A program made the position numbers and the translations under genes. The notes under the pieces are model-generated. The model was not told the DNA's origin and searched no databases. It was given only the letters and a program-made list of their open reading frames with translations. This document shows, one piece after another, positions 1,466 to 9,400 of a stretch of 64,000 nucleotides of DNA. The stretch's first letter is position 1; each line of letters opens with the position of its first letter. Location: contig NZ_CP097484.1 in assembly GCF_023546765.1 (NCBI RefSeq), forward strand, positions 62,001 to 126,000, read 5' to 3'. The DNA is from Methylobacterium tardum (GTDB lineage: Bacteria > Pseudomonadota > Alphaproteobacteria > Rhizobiales > Beijerinckiaceae).

Positions 1466-2671
1466 ATGGACTTCACCATCTCGCCCCGCGTCGAGGCGTA
1501 CCGCGCCCGGATCGCCGACTTCGTGGATGCCCACGTTGTGCCGCTCGAATCCGTGCCGGCAGCCTATGACGGGCACGGCAACATCAGCCTCGCCGAGCTG
1601 GCCCGGCTGCGCGGCCTCGCCCGAGATCAGGGATTGTGGTGCCTTCAGCTGAAGCCCGAGACCGGGGGCGCCGGGCTCGACAAGGTCGGCATGGCGGTCT
1701 GCTACGAGGCGATGAACCGCTCGATCTTCGGGCCGGTCGTGTTCAACTCGGCCGCGCCGGACGACGGCAACATGATGGTGCTGGAGAAGGTCGCAACCCC
1801 GGCCCAGAAGGAGCGCTGGCTCGCGCCGATCGTGGACGGACGGGTCCGCTCGGCCTTCGCGATGACCGAGCCGCATCCTGGCGGCGGCTCCGATCCCGGC
1901 ATGATCCAGACCCGGGCCGAACGCCGGGGCGACACCTACGTGGTCACCGGCCGAAAATGGTACATCACCGGCGCCGAGGAAGCCGACCACTTCATCCTGA
2001 TGGCCCGCACTTCCGACGACGCGCGGAAAGGTCTGACCGCCTTCCTGTTCCACAAGGACCAGCCCGGTTGGCGGATCCTGCGCCGCATCCCGATCATGGG
2101 ACCGGAGGAGCATGGCGGCCATTGCGAGCTGCTGTTCGAGGGGCTGGAGATCCCGGCCGAGAATGTCCTGATGAACGAGGGCGACGGCCTGAAGCTCACG
2201 CAGATCCGCCTCGGCCCGGCACGGATGACCCACTGCATGCGCTGGCTCGGCCTGTCGAAGCGCTGCGTCGAGATCGCCCGGGCCTACGCGGCCGAGCGCC
2301 ACGGCTTCGGCATCCGCCTGGCCGACCGGGAGAGCATCCAGCTGATGCTGGGCGACCTCGCCATGCGGATCGAGATCGGCCGCCTGCTGGTCATGAAGGC
2401 CGCCTGGGCGCTCGACCAGGGCAGCTTCGCCCGCAAGGAAGTCTCGATGGCCAAGGTCCACGTGGCCAACCTGCTGCACGCGGCCGCCGACGTGGCGATC
2501 CAGATCAACGGCGCCCGGGGCTATTCCACCGACACGCCGCTCGAATGGATCTACCGCTACGCCCGGCAGGCGCGGCTGGTGGACGGGGCCGACGAGGTCC
2601 ACAAGATGGTGCTCAACCGGAACCTGGAAACTGAGGGCGACGCCTTCTGGTCGTGGCCGGTGGGCGCGTGA
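1466..2671 (+). CDS. acyl-CoA dehydrogenase family protein (ACAD10/11- or LvaC-like)
   Basis: A 401-residue flavoprotein of the acyl-CoA dehydrogenase fold: N-terminal helical domain, central beta domain (MTEPHPGGGSDP and the KWYITGA stretch that contacts FAD and substrate), and C-terminal helical domain with GARGYSTDTPLEWIYR and DGADEVHK. The LGPARMTHCMRW stretch is typical of the branch containing ACAD10/11 and LvaC. The start is the ATG at 1466, preceded by GGAGG; an upstream in-frame ATG at 1355 would add 37 residues unlike the family. The next gene begins 8 bases after the stop, so it leads an operon with thiolase, SDR, kinase and DUF6285-like genes. In the Lva pathway the equivalent enzyme acts on the 4-phosphoacyl-CoA made by the kinase. 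That specific role is inferred from context; the family call is firm. Confidence 0.9.
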   Translation: MDFTISPRVEAYRARIADFVDAHVVPLESVPAAYDGHGNISLAELARLRGLARDQGLWCLQLKPETGGAGLDKVGMAVCYEAMNRSIFGPVVFNSAAPDDGNMMVLEKVATPAQKERWLAPIVDGRVRSAFAMTEPHPGGGSDPGMIQTRAERRGDTYVVTGRKWYITGAEEADHFILMARTSDDARKGLTAFLFHKDQPGWRILRRIPIMGPEEHGGHCELLFEGLEIPAENVLMNEGDGLKLTQIRLGPARMTHCMRWLGLSKRCVEIARAYAAERHGFGIRLADRESIQLMLGDLAMRIEIGRLLVMKAAWALDQGSFARKEVSMAKVHVANLLHAAADVAIQINGARGYSTDTPLEWIYRYARQARLVDGADEVHKMVLNRNLETEGDAFWSWPVGA

Positions 2672-2678
2672 GCGAGAG

Positions 2679-3865
2679 ATGACGAGCATGACCGACGTCG
2701 TGATCACAGGCGCGGTGCGGACCGCGATCGGCACCTTCGGCGGTGCGCTGGCCGCGATTCCGCCCTCGGAGCTCGCGGCCCAATGCATCGCGGAGGCGCT
2801 GCGCCGGTCCGGCACAGCGCCGGACACGGTCGGCCACGTGGTCCTCGGCAACGTGATCCCGACCGAGCCGCGGGACGCCTACATCGCCCGCGTCGCCGCG
2901 ATGGAGGGCGGCATCCCCAAGGAAGTGCCGGCCATGACGGTCAACCGGCTCTGCGGCAGCGGCCTCCAAGCGATCGTCTCGGCGGCGCAGTCCATCCTGC
3001 TCGGCGATGCCGACACGGCGGTGGCCGGGGGCGCCGAGAGCATGAGTCGTTCGCCGCATCTCCTGAAGAACGGGCGCACAGGGCAGCGCATGGGCGACGC
3101 GGTGCTGGTCGATTACATGCTCGGCGCGCTGAGCGACCCGTTCGGAAACGGCCATATGGGCGTGACCGCCGAGAACATCGCGGAGCGCTACGGCATCCCC
3201 CGCGAGACGCAAGATGCCTTCGCCGCCGAGAGCCGGCTCGTGCGGCTCAGGCGATCCAGGAGGGTCGATTCCGCGAGCAGATCCTGCCCGTCGAGATCCA
3301 GCGCAAGCGCGAGACGGTGGCGTTTGACACCGACGAGCACCCGAAATCGACCAGCGCCGAGGACCTCGCCAAGCTGCGCCCCGCCTTCTCAAAGACCGGC
3401 AGCGTCACGGCCGGCAACGCCTCGGGCCTCAACGACGGCGCCGCCGCGCTCGTGCTGTCGAGCGCGGCCCGCGCGGAGCGCGACGGCCGCACGCCGCTCG
3501 CGCGCATCGTCGGCTACGCCCATGCGGGCGTGGATCCGTCCGAGATGGGCATGGGCCCGGTCCCGGCCGTACGGCGCCTGCTGGATCGCACGGGCCTCCG
3601 CGCGGCGGATTTCGACGTCATCGAGTCGAACGAGGCCTTCGCGTCCCAGGCCTGCGCGGTGTCGCGCGAACTGGACCTCGATCCCGCCAGGGTGAATCCC
3701 AACGGCGGCGCCATCGCGCTGGGCCATCCGATCGGCGCCACCGGCGCGATCATCACCGTGAAGGCGCTCTACGAGCTGGCCCGCAGCGGCGGGCGCTACG
3801 GGCTGGTGACCATGTGCATCGGCGGCGGTCAGGGGATCGCCCTGGCGGTCGAGCGGCTGCACTGA
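2679..3865 (+). CDS. acetyl-CoA C-acetyltransferase (thiolase), with one frameshift
   Basis: Thiolase of about 395 residues once one base is restored. The acyl-accepting cysteine is Cys92 in NRLCGSG. The C-terminal half carries NEAFA, the GHPIGATG histidine and the CIGGGQG cysteine, so all catalytic residues are present. The enzyme would cleave a 3-ketoacyl-CoA to acetyl-CoA plus a shortened acyl-CoA, or run in reverse. The frame changes near 3229-3240, within the conserved [10 protein letters not shown] region; both halves are otherwise intact. An alternative start ATG lies at 2688. It sits second in the catabolic operon and its stop is one base before the SDR start, which fits a final cleavage step for the cluster's substrate. 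Confidence 0.9.
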
Positions 3866-3866
3866 G

Positions 3867-4634
3867 ATGGCAAACCCCTTCGATCTCGCCGGCCGGCACG
3901 TCCTGGTGACCGGGGCGTCGAGCGGCCTCGGCCGCCACTTCGCCGGGACGCTGGCGCGGGCCGGGGCGCACCTGACCCTCTGCGGGCGACGGGCCGACGC
4001 CCTGGCCGAGACCGTCGCCCGCGTCGAAGGGGAGGGCGGCCGTGCCCACGCGGTGGTGATGGACGTGACCGACGCGGCGAGTGTCGAGCAGGCGCTGGAT
4101 GCCGCGGAGGCGCGGTTCGGCCCCGTCCGGGTGCTCGTCAACAATGCCGGCATCACCGCGACGAAGCCCGCCCTCGACCTCGCCGAGGCCGATTGGGACG
4201 CGGTGCTCGACACGAACCTGAAGGGCGTCTGGCTGGTCGCCCAGGCGACCGGACGGCGCATGGTCCGCGACGGCACGGGCGGCAGCATCGTCAACATCGC
4301 GTCGATCCTAGGTTTGCGGGTCACCGGCGGCCTCGCACCCTACGCGGCCTCGAAGGCCGGAGTGGTGCAGCTCACCAAGAGCCTCGCGCTCGAGTGGGCG
4401 CGCCACGGCATCCGGGTGAACGCCCTGGCGCCTGGCTACATCAAGACTGAGCTGAACGACGCCTTCTTCGAATCCGATGCCGGCAAGGCGCTGATCAAGC
4501 GCGTGCCGCAGCGCCGGCTCGGTGAGGCGGCCGAACTCGACGGCCCGCTGCTGCTGCTCGCCTCCGATGCCGGCGCCTACATGACCGGAAGCGTCGTCGC
4601 GGTGGACGGCGGTCACCTCGTTTCGGGCCTGTAG
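3867..4634 (+). CDS. SDR family NAD(P)-dependent oxidoreductase (LvaD-like position)
   Basis: Classical short-chain dehydrogenase of 255 residues. It has the Rossmann motif TGASSGLG near residue 16, NNAG near 95, a catalytic Ser in NIASILG, YAASK as the Tyr/Lys pair, and the PGYIKTEL and VDGGH segments. It is translationally coupled to the thiolase gene and three bases separate its stop from the kinase start. In the levulinate cluster the equivalent SDR reduces the 4-keto acyl-CoA to 4-hydroxyacyl-CoA; a 3-hydroxyacyl-CoA dehydrogenase role feeding the adjacent thiolase is equally possible. The sequence alone does not fix the substrate. Confidence 0.9.
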   Translation: MANPFDLAGRHVLVTGASSGLGRHFAGTLARAGAHLTLCGRRADALAETVARVEGEGGRAHAVVMDVTDAASVEQALDAAEARFGPVRVLVNNAGITATKPALDLAEADWDAVLDTNLKGVWLVAQATGRRMVRDGTGGSIVNIASILGLRVTGGLAPYAASKAGVVQLTKSLALEWARHGIRVNALAPGYIKTELNDAFFESDAGKALIKRVPQRRLGEAAELDGPLLLLASDAGAYMTGSVVAVDGGHLVSGL

Positions 4635-4637
4635 CGG

Positions 4638-5651
4638 ATGGACGCGACACGCCTGCGCGACTGGATGGCCAGCCATCTCGGCTGCCCGGACCTCGTCGTT
4701 GAGGAGATCCGCCCGCTCGGCGGCGGCTCGATCCAGGAGAACAGGCTGGTGCGCTGCCGCCTCGGCGATGGCGTCCGTAACTACGTGCTGCGCATGGATG
4801 CCGCCGCCACCATCGCGTCGAGCCGATCGCGCGCGGAGGAGTTCCGTATCCTGGAGGCCGTCTGGCGCGCCGGCGTGCGCGTGCCGGAGCCGGTCGGGTT
4901 CTGCACGGACCCGGCCGTGGTCGGCGCGCCGTTCGCGCTTATGGGCCTGGTGGAGGGGGTCGGCCTGGGTCCGCGCATCGCGAAGGATCTGAGCCTCGGC
5001 GGTGACCGCGGGCGCCTCGCGGAAGATCTCGGACGAGAACTCGCCAAGATCCACGACACGCTGGATGCGCGCGAGCCGCTGCCGCCCGCACTGGCCTTCC
5101 TCGGGGCGCCGGAGGCGGACCCGGCTCGCGCCGAGATCGCACGGCTGCGCGCGAGCCTCGACGGGATCGATGTGCGGCGGCCGGCGATCGAATGGGGCCT
5201 GCGCTGGGGCGAGCTGCGCGCGCCCGATTGCCCGGAGCCGACTCTGGTCCATCGGGATTTCCGCACCGGCAACTACATGGTCGACGGGTCGGGCCTGACC
5301 GCCGTGCTCGACTGGGAATTCGCCGGCTGGGGCGATCCCGCGCAAGATCTCGGCTGGTTCTGTGCCGCCTGCTGGCGGTTCGGCAGACCGGACTTGGAGG
5401 CCGGCGGGATCGGGTCCCGCGCCGCCTTCTACCGCGGCTACACCGCCGCGAGCGGTCGTCGGATCGATCCGGACCGCGTCGCGTACTGGGAGGTGCTGGC
5501 CCATCTGCGCTGGGCGGTTATCGCCCTGGAGCAGGGTGCCCGCCACGTCTCCGGCCGCGAGTTCTCCCTCGAACTGGCGCTGACCGGCCGGATGGTCCCC
5601 GACCTGGAGCGGGCCATTCTGCAGGCGACCGCCCCCGAAGCCTGGAGCTGA
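4638..5651 (+). CDS. APH-family phosphotransferase (LvaA/ACAD10-kinase-like)
   Basis: A 337-residue aminoglycoside-phosphotransferase/choline-kinase fold protein. Visible motifs are the N-lobe LGGGSIQENRL nucleotide loop, the lysine-site-like strand VLRMDAA, the Brenner motif HRDFRTGN near residue 207, and the metal-binding DWEFAGWGDP. It is not an antibiotic-resistance gene by context: it sits between an SDR and a DUF6285-like gene inside an acyl-CoA operon, exactly as LvaA does. LvaA with LvaB, and the kinase domains of ACAD10/11, phosphorylate the 4-hydroxyl of 4-hydroxyacyl-CoAs. That assignment is inferred from family plus gene order. The stop is two bases from the next start. Confidence 0.87.
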   Translation: MDATRLRDWMASHLGCPDLVVEEIRPLGGGSIQENRLVRCRLGDGVRNYVLRMDAAATIASSRSRAEEFRILEAVWRAGVRVPEPVGFCTDPAVVGAPFALMGLVEGVGLGPRIAKDLSLGGDRGRLAEDLGRELAKIHDTLDAREPLPPALAFLGAPEADPARAEIARLRASLDGIDVRRPAIEWGLRWGELRAPDCPEPTLVHRDFRTGNYMVDGSGLTAVLDWEFAGWGDPAQDLGWFCAACWRFGRPDLEAGGIGSRAAFYRGYTAASGRRIDPDRVAYWEVLAHLRWAVIALEQGARHVSGREFSLELALTGRMVPDLERAILQATAPEAWS

Positions 5652-5653
5652 GC

Positions 5654-5977
5654 ATGCAGGACGAGCCTTCCGGCGCTGCCCTCCTCGACGCAGCCCGCCG
5701 GTCACTGATCGAGGAGGTAATCCCCGGCCTGACCGGTCGGCCGCGCTACGTCGCGCTGATGGTCGCCAACGCGATCGGGATCGCCGCGCGCGAGATCGCC
5801 GAGACCGATGCCTTGCAGGCGGCGTCCGAGCGCGTGCTGGCCGGCGCGCCGGTCGAGGCGCTGGTCCAGGCGATCCGCGCAGGCACGCGCGACGCCGATC
5901 CCGATCTGCACGCCGCGCTCACGGAGGCCGCGGAGGCCGCCGCGCAGGTTTGGAAGCCTGGGGTCGCCAAAGGCTGA
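5654..5977 (+). CDS. small DUF6285-like protein (LvaB-like kinase partner)
   Basis: A 107-residue, alpha-helical, soluble protein with no signal peptide; conserved-looking stretches are LIEEVIPGL, RYVALMVANAI and the acidic C-terminal helix. I recall this size and pattern as DUF6285 proteins that accompany APH-type kinases. In the levulinate pathway LvaB is a protein of about this size needed for LvaA activity. The ATG at 5654 lies two bases after the kinase stop, implying coupled translation and a complex. It has no catalytic motif I recognise. It is the last + strand gene of the operon; the acyl-CoA synthetase gene converges on it. Confidence 0.78.
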   Translation: MQDEPSGAALLDAARRSLIEEVIPGLTGRPRYVALMVANAIGIAAREIAETDALQAASERVLAGAPVEALVQAIRAGTRDADPDLHAALTEAAEAAAQVWKPGVAKG

Positions 5978-6061
5978 GCGGGCGGGCAGCGGCTGATCTG
6001 AGTGTCCCAACTGAGCCGCACCTCAGGATAAGGTCAGTGGTGGACCTCCCGTTTCAGCGGC

Positions 6062-7715
6062 TCACAGTGCCCGCGCCTGCTCACGCAGCACGAACTTCTG
6101 GATCTTGCCGGTCGAGGTCTTCGGCAGCACGCCGAACACGACCGTCTTCGGCACCTTGAATCGCGCCATGCGCTCGCGACAGAAAGCGATCACCTCCTGG
6201 TCGGACGGTGCGTCGCCGCCCGGTTTCACTTCGAGGAACGCACAAGGGCTCTCGCCCCAGGTCGGGTCCGGCCGCGCCACGACGGCCGCCAGCATCACCG
6301 ACGGATGGCGCATCAGCACCTCCTCCACCTCCAGGCTCGAGATGTTCTCGCCGCCCGAGATGATGATGTCCTTGGCCCGATCCTTGATCTCGACGGAGCC
6401 GTCCGGATGCCAGACGGCGAGGTCGCCCGTCCGGTACCAGCCGCCGGCCAGCGCCCGTCCGGTGGCGTCGGGATTGCCAAGATAGCCCTTCATCACGGTG
6501 TTGCCGCGCAGGCAGATCTCGCCGACCGTCGTGCCGTCCTGCGAGACGGGCCGGCCGGTCGCCACGTCGATGACCGAAACGCCCTCGAGAGTTGCGAGCG
6601 GCACGCCCTGACGCGCCATGCGGGCGTAACGGTCGGCGTCCGTCAGAGCGGTCCAATCGGGCTGCGCGAGGCAGACCGTGGCCGGCCCGTAGCTCTCGGT
6701 CGCGCCGTAGAGATGCGTCACCTGGAAGCCGAGTTCTTCCATCGTGCGGATGATCGTCCGAGGAGGGGGCCGCGCCGCCGACCGCGCACCGCACCCGTTG
6801 CGGGAAGGCCAGGCGATCGTTCTCCGGCGCGTGCGCGATCATCGAGAGCACGATCGGGGCGCCGCAGAGATGCGTCACGCCGTGCTCGGCGATGAGACGG
6901 AAGATCGCCGCCGGCTCGACCTTGCGCAGGCAGACCTGGGTGGCGCAGGCGGCGACGCTCGCCCAGGGATACGACCAGCCGCTGCAATGAAACATCGGCA
7001 AGGTCCAGAGATACACGCTCTCCGTCGTCAGGCCGAAGGTGACGGCATTGCCGAGGGCTTGAAGATAGGCGCCGCGGTGACTGTAGACCGCCCCCTTCGG
7101 GTCGCCGGTCGTGCCGGACGTGTACAGGAGGCAGAGCGACTGCCATTCGTCTTCCGGGCCGGTCCAGGCGTAGTCGGCGTTGCCTGAAGCCAGCAGAGCT
7201 TCGTACGGGATCGCCCCGGCGATGCCGGTCTCGCCGATCGTCACAACGAGAATGGGCTCGGCCCGATCCGCCAGTGCCCGTGCCGCGAGCGCTCCGTACT
7301 CGGCCTCGGCGATCACCACCCGGGCGCCGCCATGTGACAGGGAGAAGGCGATCGTCGCCGGATCGAGGCGGGTGTTGAGCGGGTTCAGCACGGCGCCGAG
7401 CATAGGCACGGCAAAATGGGCCTCGATCATCTCGGGCACGTTCGGCGCGAGGATCGCCACGGTGTCGAGCCGTCCGATTCCGAGACGCGCGAGGCCGGAG
7501 GCGAGGCGGCGGCTTCGCGTGTAAAGGTCCGCGTAGGTGAGGCGCCGGCTGCCGTCGATGACGGCGATCTTGGCTCCCGATGCGGCGGCGGCGCGCGCCA
7601 GAAGGCTCACGGGGGTCAGCGGCACGTAATTGGCGGGCGTCCGGTCCAGCCCTGTCTCGAAGGGATGACGGCCGGCCACTCTTGGCCGGAGGGACGGCGG
7701 GCAGGTCTCCGGCAT
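6062..7715 (-). CDS. acyl-CoA synthetase, AMP-binding family (LvaE-like), with one frameshift
   Basis: About 550 residues of the ANL superfamily. It has the P-loop-like LLYTSGTTGDPKG, YGATESYGP, GWYRTGDLAVWHPDG, DRAKDIIISGGENIS, and the C-terminal catalytic lysine in PKTSTGKIQ. The enzyme activates a carboxylic acid to its CoA thioester through an acyl-adenylate. The frame breaks near 6760-6775, just after GGAAP, with one base too many or two too few; before and after it the protein is complete. It is convergent to the dehydrogenase/kinase operon and supplies the acid-activation step such a pathway needs. Similar medium- and short-chain acyl-CoA ligases cannot be told apart by eye. Confidence 0.88.
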
Positions 7716-7967: not shown

Positions 7968-8459
7968 ATGGCGGAGAGCGGCGTCGCGCGGGCGCGCGAG
8001 ACCTACGAGCGCTTCGCGGAGGCCGGCGAGATGGCGCTCAACGCGTTCGAGGCCTCGATGGCCCAGAGTTTCGAGGGCTGGCGCTCGGTGATGGGGTCCA
8101 GCCGCGAGACCACACACCAGCTCACCGACAGCAACGTCGCCGGCGCCCGCAAGATGCGCGAGCAATGGGACGCGGCCGGCGCGCGGCTCTACAACGCCTT
8201 CGAGGATAACGCCGTCCATGCCATGGCGGCGATGCGCGAGATCGGTCACCGGATGCTGGTGGCCACGGACACGAACGTTCGTGCCACGCTGGATTTCGCC
8301 GAGCGCGTCGCCAAGGCGGCCGACGCCCGGGAAGTCGCTGCGCTAAACGTCACCTTCCTGCAGGAACAGTCGCGCCGTCTGACTGAGCAGATGGTCGATC
8401 TTCACCAGACGACCAGCCGTCTCGCCCGCGAGGCGGCGGCCCGTACCGAAACACCGTGA
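7968..8459 (+). CDS. phasin family protein
   Basis: A 163-residue helical protein with the amphipathic pattern of phasins (RARETYERFAEAGEMALNAF, NAFEDNAVHAM, FLQEQSRRLTEQ). Phasins coat polyhydroxyalkanoate granules. The start is uncertain. The ATG at 7968 has no good ribosome site, whereas a GTG at 7921 follows GGGAGAC but is in another frame. One missing base near 7960 would fuse the two and give a more usual phasin N-terminus, so this may be another indel. The stop overlaps the start of the hydrolase gene by four bases (GTGA). Confidence 0.75.
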   Translation: MAESGVARARETYERFAEAGEMALNAFEASMAQSFEGWRSVMGSSRETTHQLTDSNVAGARKMREQWDAAGARLYNAFEDNAVHAMAAMREIGHRMLVATDTNVRATLDFAERVAKAADAREVAALNVTFLQEQSRRLTEQMVDLHQTTSRLAREAAARTETP

Positions 8460-9400
8460 CCATGCTCTCGGGGGGGCAGGTCGCGGCGGGTCCGGCCGCA
8501 ACGATGCCGCGTCTGGACGATCTCAGCCGTGCCGACGTGCCGTTCCGGACCGGGCAGTTCTGGGCCTACGCGCCGCACGACTTCCACCGGATCGCCTATG
8601 TCGAATGGGGGGATCCGGACAGCCCGCACGTGGTCATCTGCGTCCACGGCCTGAGCCGGCAGGGCCGCGACTTCGATCCTCTGGGCTACCGGCTGGCCAA
8701 GATGGGCTACCGGGTCGTCTGCCCGGACCTGCCCGGGCGCGGCCTCAGCGGGTGGCTGAAGGATCCAGAACATTACGCCCTGCCGCAATACGCCGGCGAC
8801 ATGGCGGCGCTGATCGCCCATCTCCGCGTTTCCGGGAAGATCGATTGGGTCGGGACCTCGCTGGGCGGTCTGACCGGCATGGTTCTGGCCGCGGCGGCCA
8901 ACACGCCGATCCGCCGCATGGTGATCAACGACATCGGCCCGTTCCTGCCCTGGGCGCCGATCCGCCACATCGGCTCGCGCCTGCGCGACGCGCCGCGGCT
9001 GCACCACAACCTCGCCTCGGGCGAATCGCGTCTGCGCACCGTGCTGGCCGCGTTCGGATCGCTGACCGACGAGCAGTGGCGCCACATCGCCAAGCACAGC
9101 TTCTTCCGCGAACCGCATGGCGGATGGCGCCCGCATTACGATCCCGGCATCGGCGACGCGTTCCGGCCCGGGCGGGTCTACAGCGTCAGCATGTGGCGCG
9201 ATTGGGACGCGATCACCTGTCCCGTCCTGCTGCTGCGCGGCGCGCAATCGGACCTGCTCCTGGCTTCGACGGCCGACGAGATGACGCGGCGGGGCCCGCC
9301 GACGGAGCGGATCGAGATCCCCGATTGCGGCCACGCGCCCGCATTGCTGGATGACGATCAACTCAAGATCGTGACCGACTGGCTCGGTCCTGCCGCGTGA
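8456..9400 (+). CDS. alpha/beta hydrolase
   Basis: A 314-residue alpha/beta hydrolase. The oxyanion region is ICVHGLSRQGRD near residue 60, the nucleophile elbow is GTSLGG near 135, and the C-terminal histidine lies in DCGHAPALL. There is no signal peptide, so it is cytoplasmic. The GTG start at 8456 overlaps the phasin stop; an ATG two codons later is the alternative. Coupling to a phasin suggests work on polyester granules or their monomers, but I would not call it a PHA depolymerase from this evidence: no lipase-box variant or lid specific to depolymerases is recognisable. Confidence 0.85.
   Translation: MTMLSGGQVAAGPAATMPRLDDLSRADVPFRTGQFWAYAPHDFHRIAYVEWGDPDSPHVVICVHGLSRQGRDFDPLGYRLAKMGYRVVCPDLPGRGLSGWLKDPEHYALPQYAGDMAALIAHLRVSGKIDWVGTSLGGLTGMVLAAAANTPIRRMVINDIGPFLPWAPIRHIGSRLRDAPRLHHNLASGESRLRTVLAAFGSLTDEQWRHIAKHSFFREPHGGWRPHYDPGIGDAFRPGRVYSVSMWRDWDAITCPVLLLRGAQSDLLLASTADEMTRRGPPTERIEIPDCGHAPALLDDDQLKIVTDWLGPAA

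Follow-up and report, generated by a model that had tools for sequence, protein, structure and literature searches.

Gene content of the cluster and its match to an annotated lva operon

A cluster of six genes resembling the lva operon of Pseudomonas putida was analyzed in a 64,000-nucleotide (64 kb) stretch of the Methylobacterium tardum genome (contig NZ_CP097484.1, positions 62,001–126,000), hereafter called the window. Five genes, coding for an acyl-CoA dehydrogenase (ACAD), a thiolase, a short-chain dehydrogenase/reductase (SDR), a kinase of the aminoglycoside phosphotransferase (APH) fold and a small DUF6285 protein, lie on the forward strand at 1466–5977, and a gene for an AMP-forming acyl-CoA synthetase converges on them from the reverse strand at 6062–7715 (Table 1). 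The five forward genes are spaced by 1 to 7 nt, and the main Pfam domain of each of the six products scored above its cut-off. The first-pass annotation, made from the sequence alone, had described the same tightly packed strand and convergent synthetase, and all six genes were found at those positions. By its sequence this is a real and conserved Lva-type cluster, a variant of a known pathway, and it probably encodes an Lva-type route for 4-oxo and 4-hydroxy carboxylic acids, in which phosphorylation by the kinase and phosphate elimination would be followed by beta-oxidation ending in thiolysis.

When the window kinase was used as a tblastn query against plasmids, a textbook lva operon was recovered on the Pseudomonas plasmid NZ_MF344569 (locus L024). 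It carries genes for a PrpR-type activator, a kinase, a "4-hydroxypentanoyl-CoA kinase subunit LvaB", an ACAD, an SDR, a synthetase, a DUF485 protein and a cation-acetate symporter. Five of the six window proteins have counterparts in L024, with identities of 46% for the kinase, 44% for the ACAD, 56% for the SDR, 53% and 62% for the two pieces of the synthetase, and 52% for the small protein against the annotated LvaB, the last over 44 amino acids only. Thus, LvaA-, LvaB-, LvaC-, LvaD- and LvaE-like proteins, as known from lvaABCDEFG of P. putida and from L024, are all encoded in the window cluster. It differs from those operons in its C-T-D-A-B order (T, thiolase) with E convergent, in the built-in BktB-like thiolase, and in an ACAD of another subclade. 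LvaR and LvaG gave no tblastn match in the 64 kb window, as the first-pass annotation had anticipated in calling the sigma-54 regulator and the symporter lacking; the strict P. putida layout, with lvaABCDE order, sigma-54 activator LvaR and symporter LvaG, is not that of the window.

Table 1. Positions of the cluster genes and of two downstream genes in the window
Feature	Position	Strand	Basis
LvaC-like ACAD, 401 amino acids, predicted 4-phosphoacyl-CoA phosphate-eliminating enzyme	1466..2671	+	Pfam ACAD domains
BktB-like thiolase, frame change near 3235	2679..3865	+	Pfam Thiolase_N and Thiolase_C; BktB models
LvaD-like SDR, 255 amino acids, predicted 4-oxoacyl-CoA reductase	3867..4634	+	56% to LvaD of L024
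LvaA-like APH-fold kinase, 337 amino acids, predicted 4-hydroxyacyl-CoA kinase	4638..5651	+	PF01636; kinase tree; catalytic Asp D207
LvaB-like small protein (DUF6285), 107 amino acids, predicted kinase partner	5654..5977	+	PF19802
LvaE-like AMP-forming acyl-CoA synthetase, frame change near 6758	6062..7715	-	53%/62% to LvaE (two pieces)
Phasin, downstream of the cluster	7968-8459		
Alpha/beta hydrolase, downstream of the cluster	8456-9400		

Kinase and LvaB-like protein

The kinase carries a VHRDF motif at 204, the Asp of which (D207) aligns with the Asp altered in 8v3u. In a tree of 39 chosen rows, which carries a long-branch warning for 9o56 and Thermus, 34 rows including the window kinase and LvaA of L024 were split with 100/100 support from the five others, namely mouse ACAD11, 3dxp, 9o56, an M. 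aquaticum plasmid kinase and the genome's own second kinase. On this phylogeny the kinase is of the LvaA type rather than the ACAD10/11 type. Its closest matches in the protein database are mostly from Methylobacterium, as far as they carry a genus name.

The gene of the small protein starts 2 nt past the kinase gene. The product scored 44.9 bits against PF19802 (DUF6285; cut-off 28.1), the family to which the annotated LvaB of L024 itself belongs (85.3 bits), and it shows the features expected of an LvaB: a size of about 12 kDa, the DUF6285 family and a place beside LvaA. The first-pass annotation had made its reading depend on the kinase falling within the LvaA/ACAD10 clade and on the small protein being an LvaB homologue, and both expectations were borne out, by the split with the LvaA-type kinases and by the shared Pfam family. 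The protein can be called LvaB-like, and it would contact the kinase; a pulldown of LvaA with LvaB has been reported for P. putida (PMC6692424). Its AlphaFold model was all-helical (mean predicted local distance difference test score 89.2, predicted template modelling score 0.67). Foldseek gave 27 PDB hits for this model, none of which reached E ≤ 0.001, and the sequence had no believable match in the PDB (best E 0.088); neither comparison therefore yielded a structural hint of its role.

Active site and phylogeny of the acyl-CoA dehydrogenase

The window ACAD is 38% identical to mouse ACAD11. The two ACAD11 proteins of known structure are told apart by the residues at the kinase Asp and the ACAD Asp, which anchors both positions in the alignments. 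Residues R248, H256, R259 and D373 of the window ACAD correspond to R626, H634, R637 and D753 of ACAD11, so that the Glu base is replaced by Asp and the Arg/His/Arg site of phosphate-eliminating ACADs is present. The residues altered in kinase-dead and ACAD-dead ACAD11 are kept in the window proteins (PMC12440821). The R/H/R/D set was found in all 130 rows of three ACAD clades, rows which are not independent, as they include mouse ACAD11, duplicate loci and eight rows from L162–L169. Six other ACAD-like loci were fetched from the same genome, and three passed the length filter; none of the three carries the full set. The Asp column holds Glu in each of them, and the Arg of the R637 column occurs in two.

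A tree of 33 chosen ACAD rows resolved an ACAD10/11-type clade of six rows (100/100), an LvaC clade of eight rows (100/99; nine with Thermus, 93/88), defined as the clade holding LvaC of three lvaR-linked operons, and a third clade of 16 rows (99/99). The window ACAD falls in the third, which is mostly alphaproteobacterial, with Azospirillum, Tistlia, Pelagibius, Ruegeria, Paracoccus, Comamonas and Corallococcus. Judged from these alignments, it resembles LvaC in its working residues though it lies outside the LvaC subclade. The identity of P. putida LvaC to ACAD10 and ACAD11 has been published as 62% and 56% (PMC11342911); these values were not reproduced with the plasmid LvaC, which is not the KT2440 sequence and gave 34% to mouse ACAD11.

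The mammalian ACAD10 and ACAD11 resemble the window pair in the predicted phosphorylation of the 4-hydroxy group followed by phosphate elimination, and the catalytic Asp residues and the Arg/His/Arg site are common to both (PMC11342911, PMC12440821). They differ from it in that the window kinase and ACAD are separate polypeptides, the kinase belongs to the LvaA clade, and a DUF6285 partner gene is present. A closer relative of the mammalian type was found elsewhere in this genome. Locus L030 (3288–8967; contig 1 of this genome, about 953.8–959.5 kb) holds an ACAD, an APH kinase, two SDR-like genes and an AMP ligase; its ACAD is 61% identical to mouse ACAD11, and its kinase shares 29% identity with that of the window. 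The window's DUF6285 gene was the sole hit of that family in the genome, and none belonged to the L030 module. By homology, the genome holds a separate ACAD10/11-type module without LvaB beside the Lva-type cluster. The first-pass annotation had likened the kinase to both LvaAB and ACAD10/11; the first likeness holds, but the second applies to this other module.

Conservation of the cluster

A search of 111 genus-group genomes found DUF6285 in 38 of them. These hold 41 such places, and the analysis covered 40 (the window and 39 fetched loci). All 40 read ACAD-thiolase-(SDR)-kinase-DUF6285, with the SDR inside in 35 and outside in 5. Because this string recurs at every place examined, the arrangement is not a product of chance. 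The family is sparse in the wider taxonomic family (13 of 199 genomes, the window's included) and was hit in two of 14 control genomes (Caulobacter and Thermus). An LvaA-type kinase alignment was also used to scan species genomes. Of the 481 loci hit, the best 80 were kept, 23 of them from the genus group (including two titled Beijerinckiaceae metagenome-assembled genomes) and 57 from other taxa. An open DUF6285 frame lay near the kinase in 79 of the 80 loci, L086 ending too early, and a thiolase in 23 of 23 genus-group loci. The order synthetase-SDR-ACAD-kinase-DUF6285 (LvaE-LvaD-LvaC-LvaA-LvaB) was read in 18 of the 57 non-genus loci. The first-pass annotation was right that the window order differs from that of P. 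putida, but a departure of this kind is not unusual.

The conservation bears on an alternative under which an ordinary fatty acyl-CoA dehydrogenase happens to lie by an unrelated APH kinase, so that the locus would be a beta-oxidation patch without a phospho-intermediate. The Pfam and NCBIfam labels of the ACAD are indeed ordinary, and 20 of the 111 genus-group genomes have the ACAD, at 74–77%, with no DUF6285 or SDR hit. In seven of these 20 (L162–L164 and L166–L169) no cluster kinase, LvaB or thiolase was found within the fetched flanks, so a window-type ACAD can persist without its partners. Their ACADs keep R/H/R/D, and the neighbours, checked in four of the seven, included Abhydrolase_3 proteins (L164, L166 and L168) and a tripartite ATP-independent periplasmic (TRAP) solute-binding protein (L162). 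Against an ordinary enzyme stand the Asp base and Arg/His/Arg site in every clade row, with Glu in the genome's three other tested ACADs, and the constancy of both the C-T-(D)-A-B string and the DUF6285 frame near the kinase. We regard this alternative as very improbable. A remnant cluster was seen at L165 (G040), with an ACAD at 84%, a thiolase at 78% and a 32-residue SDR fragment; kinase and LvaB were not found there.

Across the 39 genus loci, Spearman correlation was highest for the kinase-LvaB pair (0.70), followed by ACAD-thiolase (0.68), SDR-kinase (0.67) and SDR-LvaB (0.67). In L032, L034, L041, L042, L049 and L069 the ACAD is kept at 92–95% and the thiolase at 89–96%, but the kinase at 64–73% and LvaB at 50–59%. 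These values are suggestive, and only that, of kinase and LvaB sequences diverging together. Some genomes carry two cluster copies (L034 and L043 in G006; L048 and L051 in G066). At L034 the kinase (64%) and LvaB (59%) stand against ACAD, thiolase and SDR at 92–96%, as if the kinase-LvaB pair had been swapped. A gene of the histidine phosphatase family comes after that of the kinase or of DUF6285 in L023 (9328–10005), L025 (7258–7911), L146, L151 and L154; such a gene has also been reported beside lvaA in P. citronellolis (PMC6692424).

The SDR was found in exactly the 38 of 111 genomes that have DUF6285, in five of them at a separate locus. These related genomes are not independent, and the co-occurrence partly reflects shared ancestry; the identical genome set nevertheless ties the SDR to the kinase and LvaB genes even where they are unlinked. 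The five separate loci (L074–L078), picked for having mutL within a few kb of the hydrolase and DUF6285 at another place in the genome, read mutL-SDR-synthetase-phasin-hydrolase, with an SDR 87–92% identical to that of the window. No ACAD, thiolase, kinase or DUF6285 was found at these mutL sites, and ACAD-thiolase-kinase-DUF6285 stands elsewhere in the same genomes (L032, L041, L042, L049 and L069). Three loci have the synthetase downstream of DUF6285 in the same direction, at a distance of about 0.1 kb in L033 and L037 and of 1.5 kb in L034.

In the window, mutL lies upstream of the cluster (recognised by eye and through the mutL genes of relatives). Phasin and hydrolase stand beside the synthetase without the cluster in L074–L078, L080 and L081; in the last two the synthetase adjoins the phasin and the cluster is on another contig, and the contig of L079 ends past the phasin. 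The first-pass annotation had taken the phasin to suit polyhydroxyalkanoate (PHA) made from 3-hydroxyacyl-CoA products. Because the phasin-hydrolase-synthetase block is a chromosomal neighbourhood that also occurs without the cluster, the phasin was rejected as evidence for PHA.

Built-in thiolase and synthetase

Both pieces of the window thiolase scored best with BktB models. The first piece holds the catalytic Cys motif, and the second the NEAF, GHPIG and CIGGGQG motifs. The intact thiolase of the relative L055 scored 650.8 bits with the BktB subfamily model (cut-off 565) and 614.4 with the BktB equivalog model (cut-off 725). With the PRK08162 model (cut-off 677), the intact synthetase of L055 reached 782 bits and LvaE of L024 856 bits; the window copy is in two frames.

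A thiolase was present in all 40 genus-group DUF6285 places examined. Among the 57 kinase loci of other taxa from the scan, none showed one with at least 45% identity and 40% coverage in the flanks fetched, which contig ends cut short in some cases. The first-pass annotation had noted the embedded thiolase, and it is the distinctive part of the cluster. A 43% thiolase piece was seen further away at L105, outside the genus group. The clusters of E-D-C-A-B order in Alphaproteobacteria (the 18 non-genus loci above, of Pelagibius, Tistlia, Kiloniellaceae and others) have all five Lva-type genes, as the window does, and encode some of the kinases and ACADs nearest to it outside the genus group; unlike the window, they showed no thiolase of at least 45% identity in the fetched flanks. 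Among the loci examined, only the Massilia putida plasmid cluster (L026) has a BktB thiolase beside DUF6285 outside the genus group. It resembles the window in holding ACAD-SDR-APH-DUF6285 with this adjacent thiolase (725 bits, exactly the equivalog cut-off), but differs in that the thiolase comes after DUF6285, not between ACAD and SDR, and that its ACAD belongs to the LvaC subclade. An AMP-forming enzyme and an enoyl-CoA hydratase follow that cluster.

The first-pass annotation overlooked that the thiolase and synthetase genes, as well as the upstream mutL (near 296), change frame in this assembly. The two cluster genes could be true pseudogenes of a cluster decaying in this strain, as their frame changes would by themselves suggest. 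Both are, however, open and full-length in the relative G071, which shares 90–93% DNA identity with the window over aligned stretches, and the ACAD, SDR, kinase and DUF6285 genes are all open in the window. In a rough frameshift test against G071, with genes chosen by base composition, 33 of 44 matched genes were intact and nine were frameshifted in the window, mutL, the thiolase and unrelated genes among them; the synthetase is not one of the nine. The reverse test on 48 window genes found 42 intact and three frameshifted in G071. Given nine of 44 against three of 48, the frame changes are probably residual insertion/deletion errors of this assembly, and decay is very unlikely. Over its whole length (1–64000) the window seems rich in single-base indel errors. 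The catalytic motifs of thiolase and synthetase can each be found across the two pieces of the enzyme.

Proposed pathway and substrate

The steps known from P. putida and mammals comprise CoA ligation, 4-oxo reduction, 4-hydroxy phosphorylation (kinase plus LvaB), phosphate elimination and beta-oxidation (PMC6692424, PMC9399607, PMC11342911, PMC12440821). From the gene content, protein families, residues, phylogeny and linkage observed here, we infer corresponding reactions in this organism. The synthetase would form the CoA thioester of the acid, and the SDR would reduce the 4-oxoacyl-CoA to 4-hydroxyacyl-CoA. Paired with the LvaB-like DUF6285 protein, the LvaA-like kinase would then phosphorylate the 4-hydroxy group, and the LvaC-like ACAD, with its Asp base and Arg/His/Arg phosphate site, would eliminate phosphate to give 2-enoyl-CoA and some 3-hydroxyacyl-CoA. 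A 3-hydroxyacyl-CoA dehydrogenase encoded elsewhere would yield 3-ketoacyl-CoA, which the BktB-like thiolase would cut, a C5 substrate giving acetyl-CoA and propionyl-CoA.

Several observations weigh against this reading. No 3-hydroxyacyl-CoA dehydrogenase was found within the cluster. An lva cluster without lvaB has been reported in P. citronellolis (PMC6692424), so LvaB is not universal. To these are added the position of the ACAD outside the subclade of the lvaR-linked operons, the 20 genomes with an ACAD but no DUF6285 or SDR hit, the shared ancestry behind the SDR co-occurrence, the synthetases of L080 and L081 on contigs apart from the cluster, the two genes frameshifted as assembled, and the L055 thiolase scoring under the BktB equivalog cut-off. 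The first-pass annotation had proposed a complete Lva-like pathway and, from the phasin, a fit with PHA synthesis. Its core of kinase and phosphate elimination is upheld by the homology of the kinase and the small protein; the PHA clause gains no support, and "complete" is too strong for a cluster with two of six genes frameshifted, the dehydrogenase step missing and a predicted function.

As a first guess, the substrate would be levulinate or 4-hydroxyvalerate, and longer 4-hydroxyacids or lactone products may also serve. It is a real possibility, at somewhat less than even chances, that the same kinase and elimination chemistry acts naturally on something other than levulinate: longer 4-hydroxy fatty acids, gamma-lactone products, or a branched or cyclic 4-hydroxyacid encountered on plants. 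In favour of this, the window ACAD groups with mostly alphaproteobacterial relatives in a subclade separate from the lvaR-linked LvaC, LvaR and LvaG are unmatched in the window, and mammalian ACAD10 and ACAD11 act on various 4-hydroxyacids (PMC12440821). On the other side, the SDR and the synthetase closely resemble LvaD and LvaE, respectively. BktB prefers C5 substrates, and a BktB-like thiolase would fit a C5 substrate such as that of the levulinate route.

A bolder and less likely extension is that Methylobacterium possesses a further, third lineage of phosphate-eliminating ACADs, accompanied by a diverged LvaA-LvaB pair and by a thiolase dedicated to it. This set would be tuned to a non-levulinate 4-hydroxyacid, e.g., a plant lactone product, and would operate in one cell with the separately evolved ACAD10/11-type module. 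If true, the two kinases would directly reveal why LvaB is required in one lineage but dispensable in the other.

Significance

According to PMC6692424, homologues of lvaABCD in Alpha-, Beta- and Gammaproteobacteria were already found by Rand et al. (2017), and occurrence in Alphaproteobacteria is therefore not new. Among the matches listed in our literature searches, in which subscription literature is thinly covered, no title described an lva-type cluster of Methylobacterium, and DUF6285 did not occur among those listed in one of these searches. A paper on levulinate-inducible expression in Methylorubrum extorquens deals, in its accessible text, with promoters of P. putida rather than with a pathway native to that species.

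By the present analysis, part of the Methylobacterium group carries a full set of Lva-type genes together with a built-in thiolase, and such a thiolase is of practical interest where levulinate is to be used. DUF6285 gains a concrete, testable role as a predicted LvaB-like kinase partner, and one genome presents 4-hydroxyacyl-CoA kinase modules of two kinds, one with LvaB and one lacking it. The function of LvaB thereby becomes open to direct testing.

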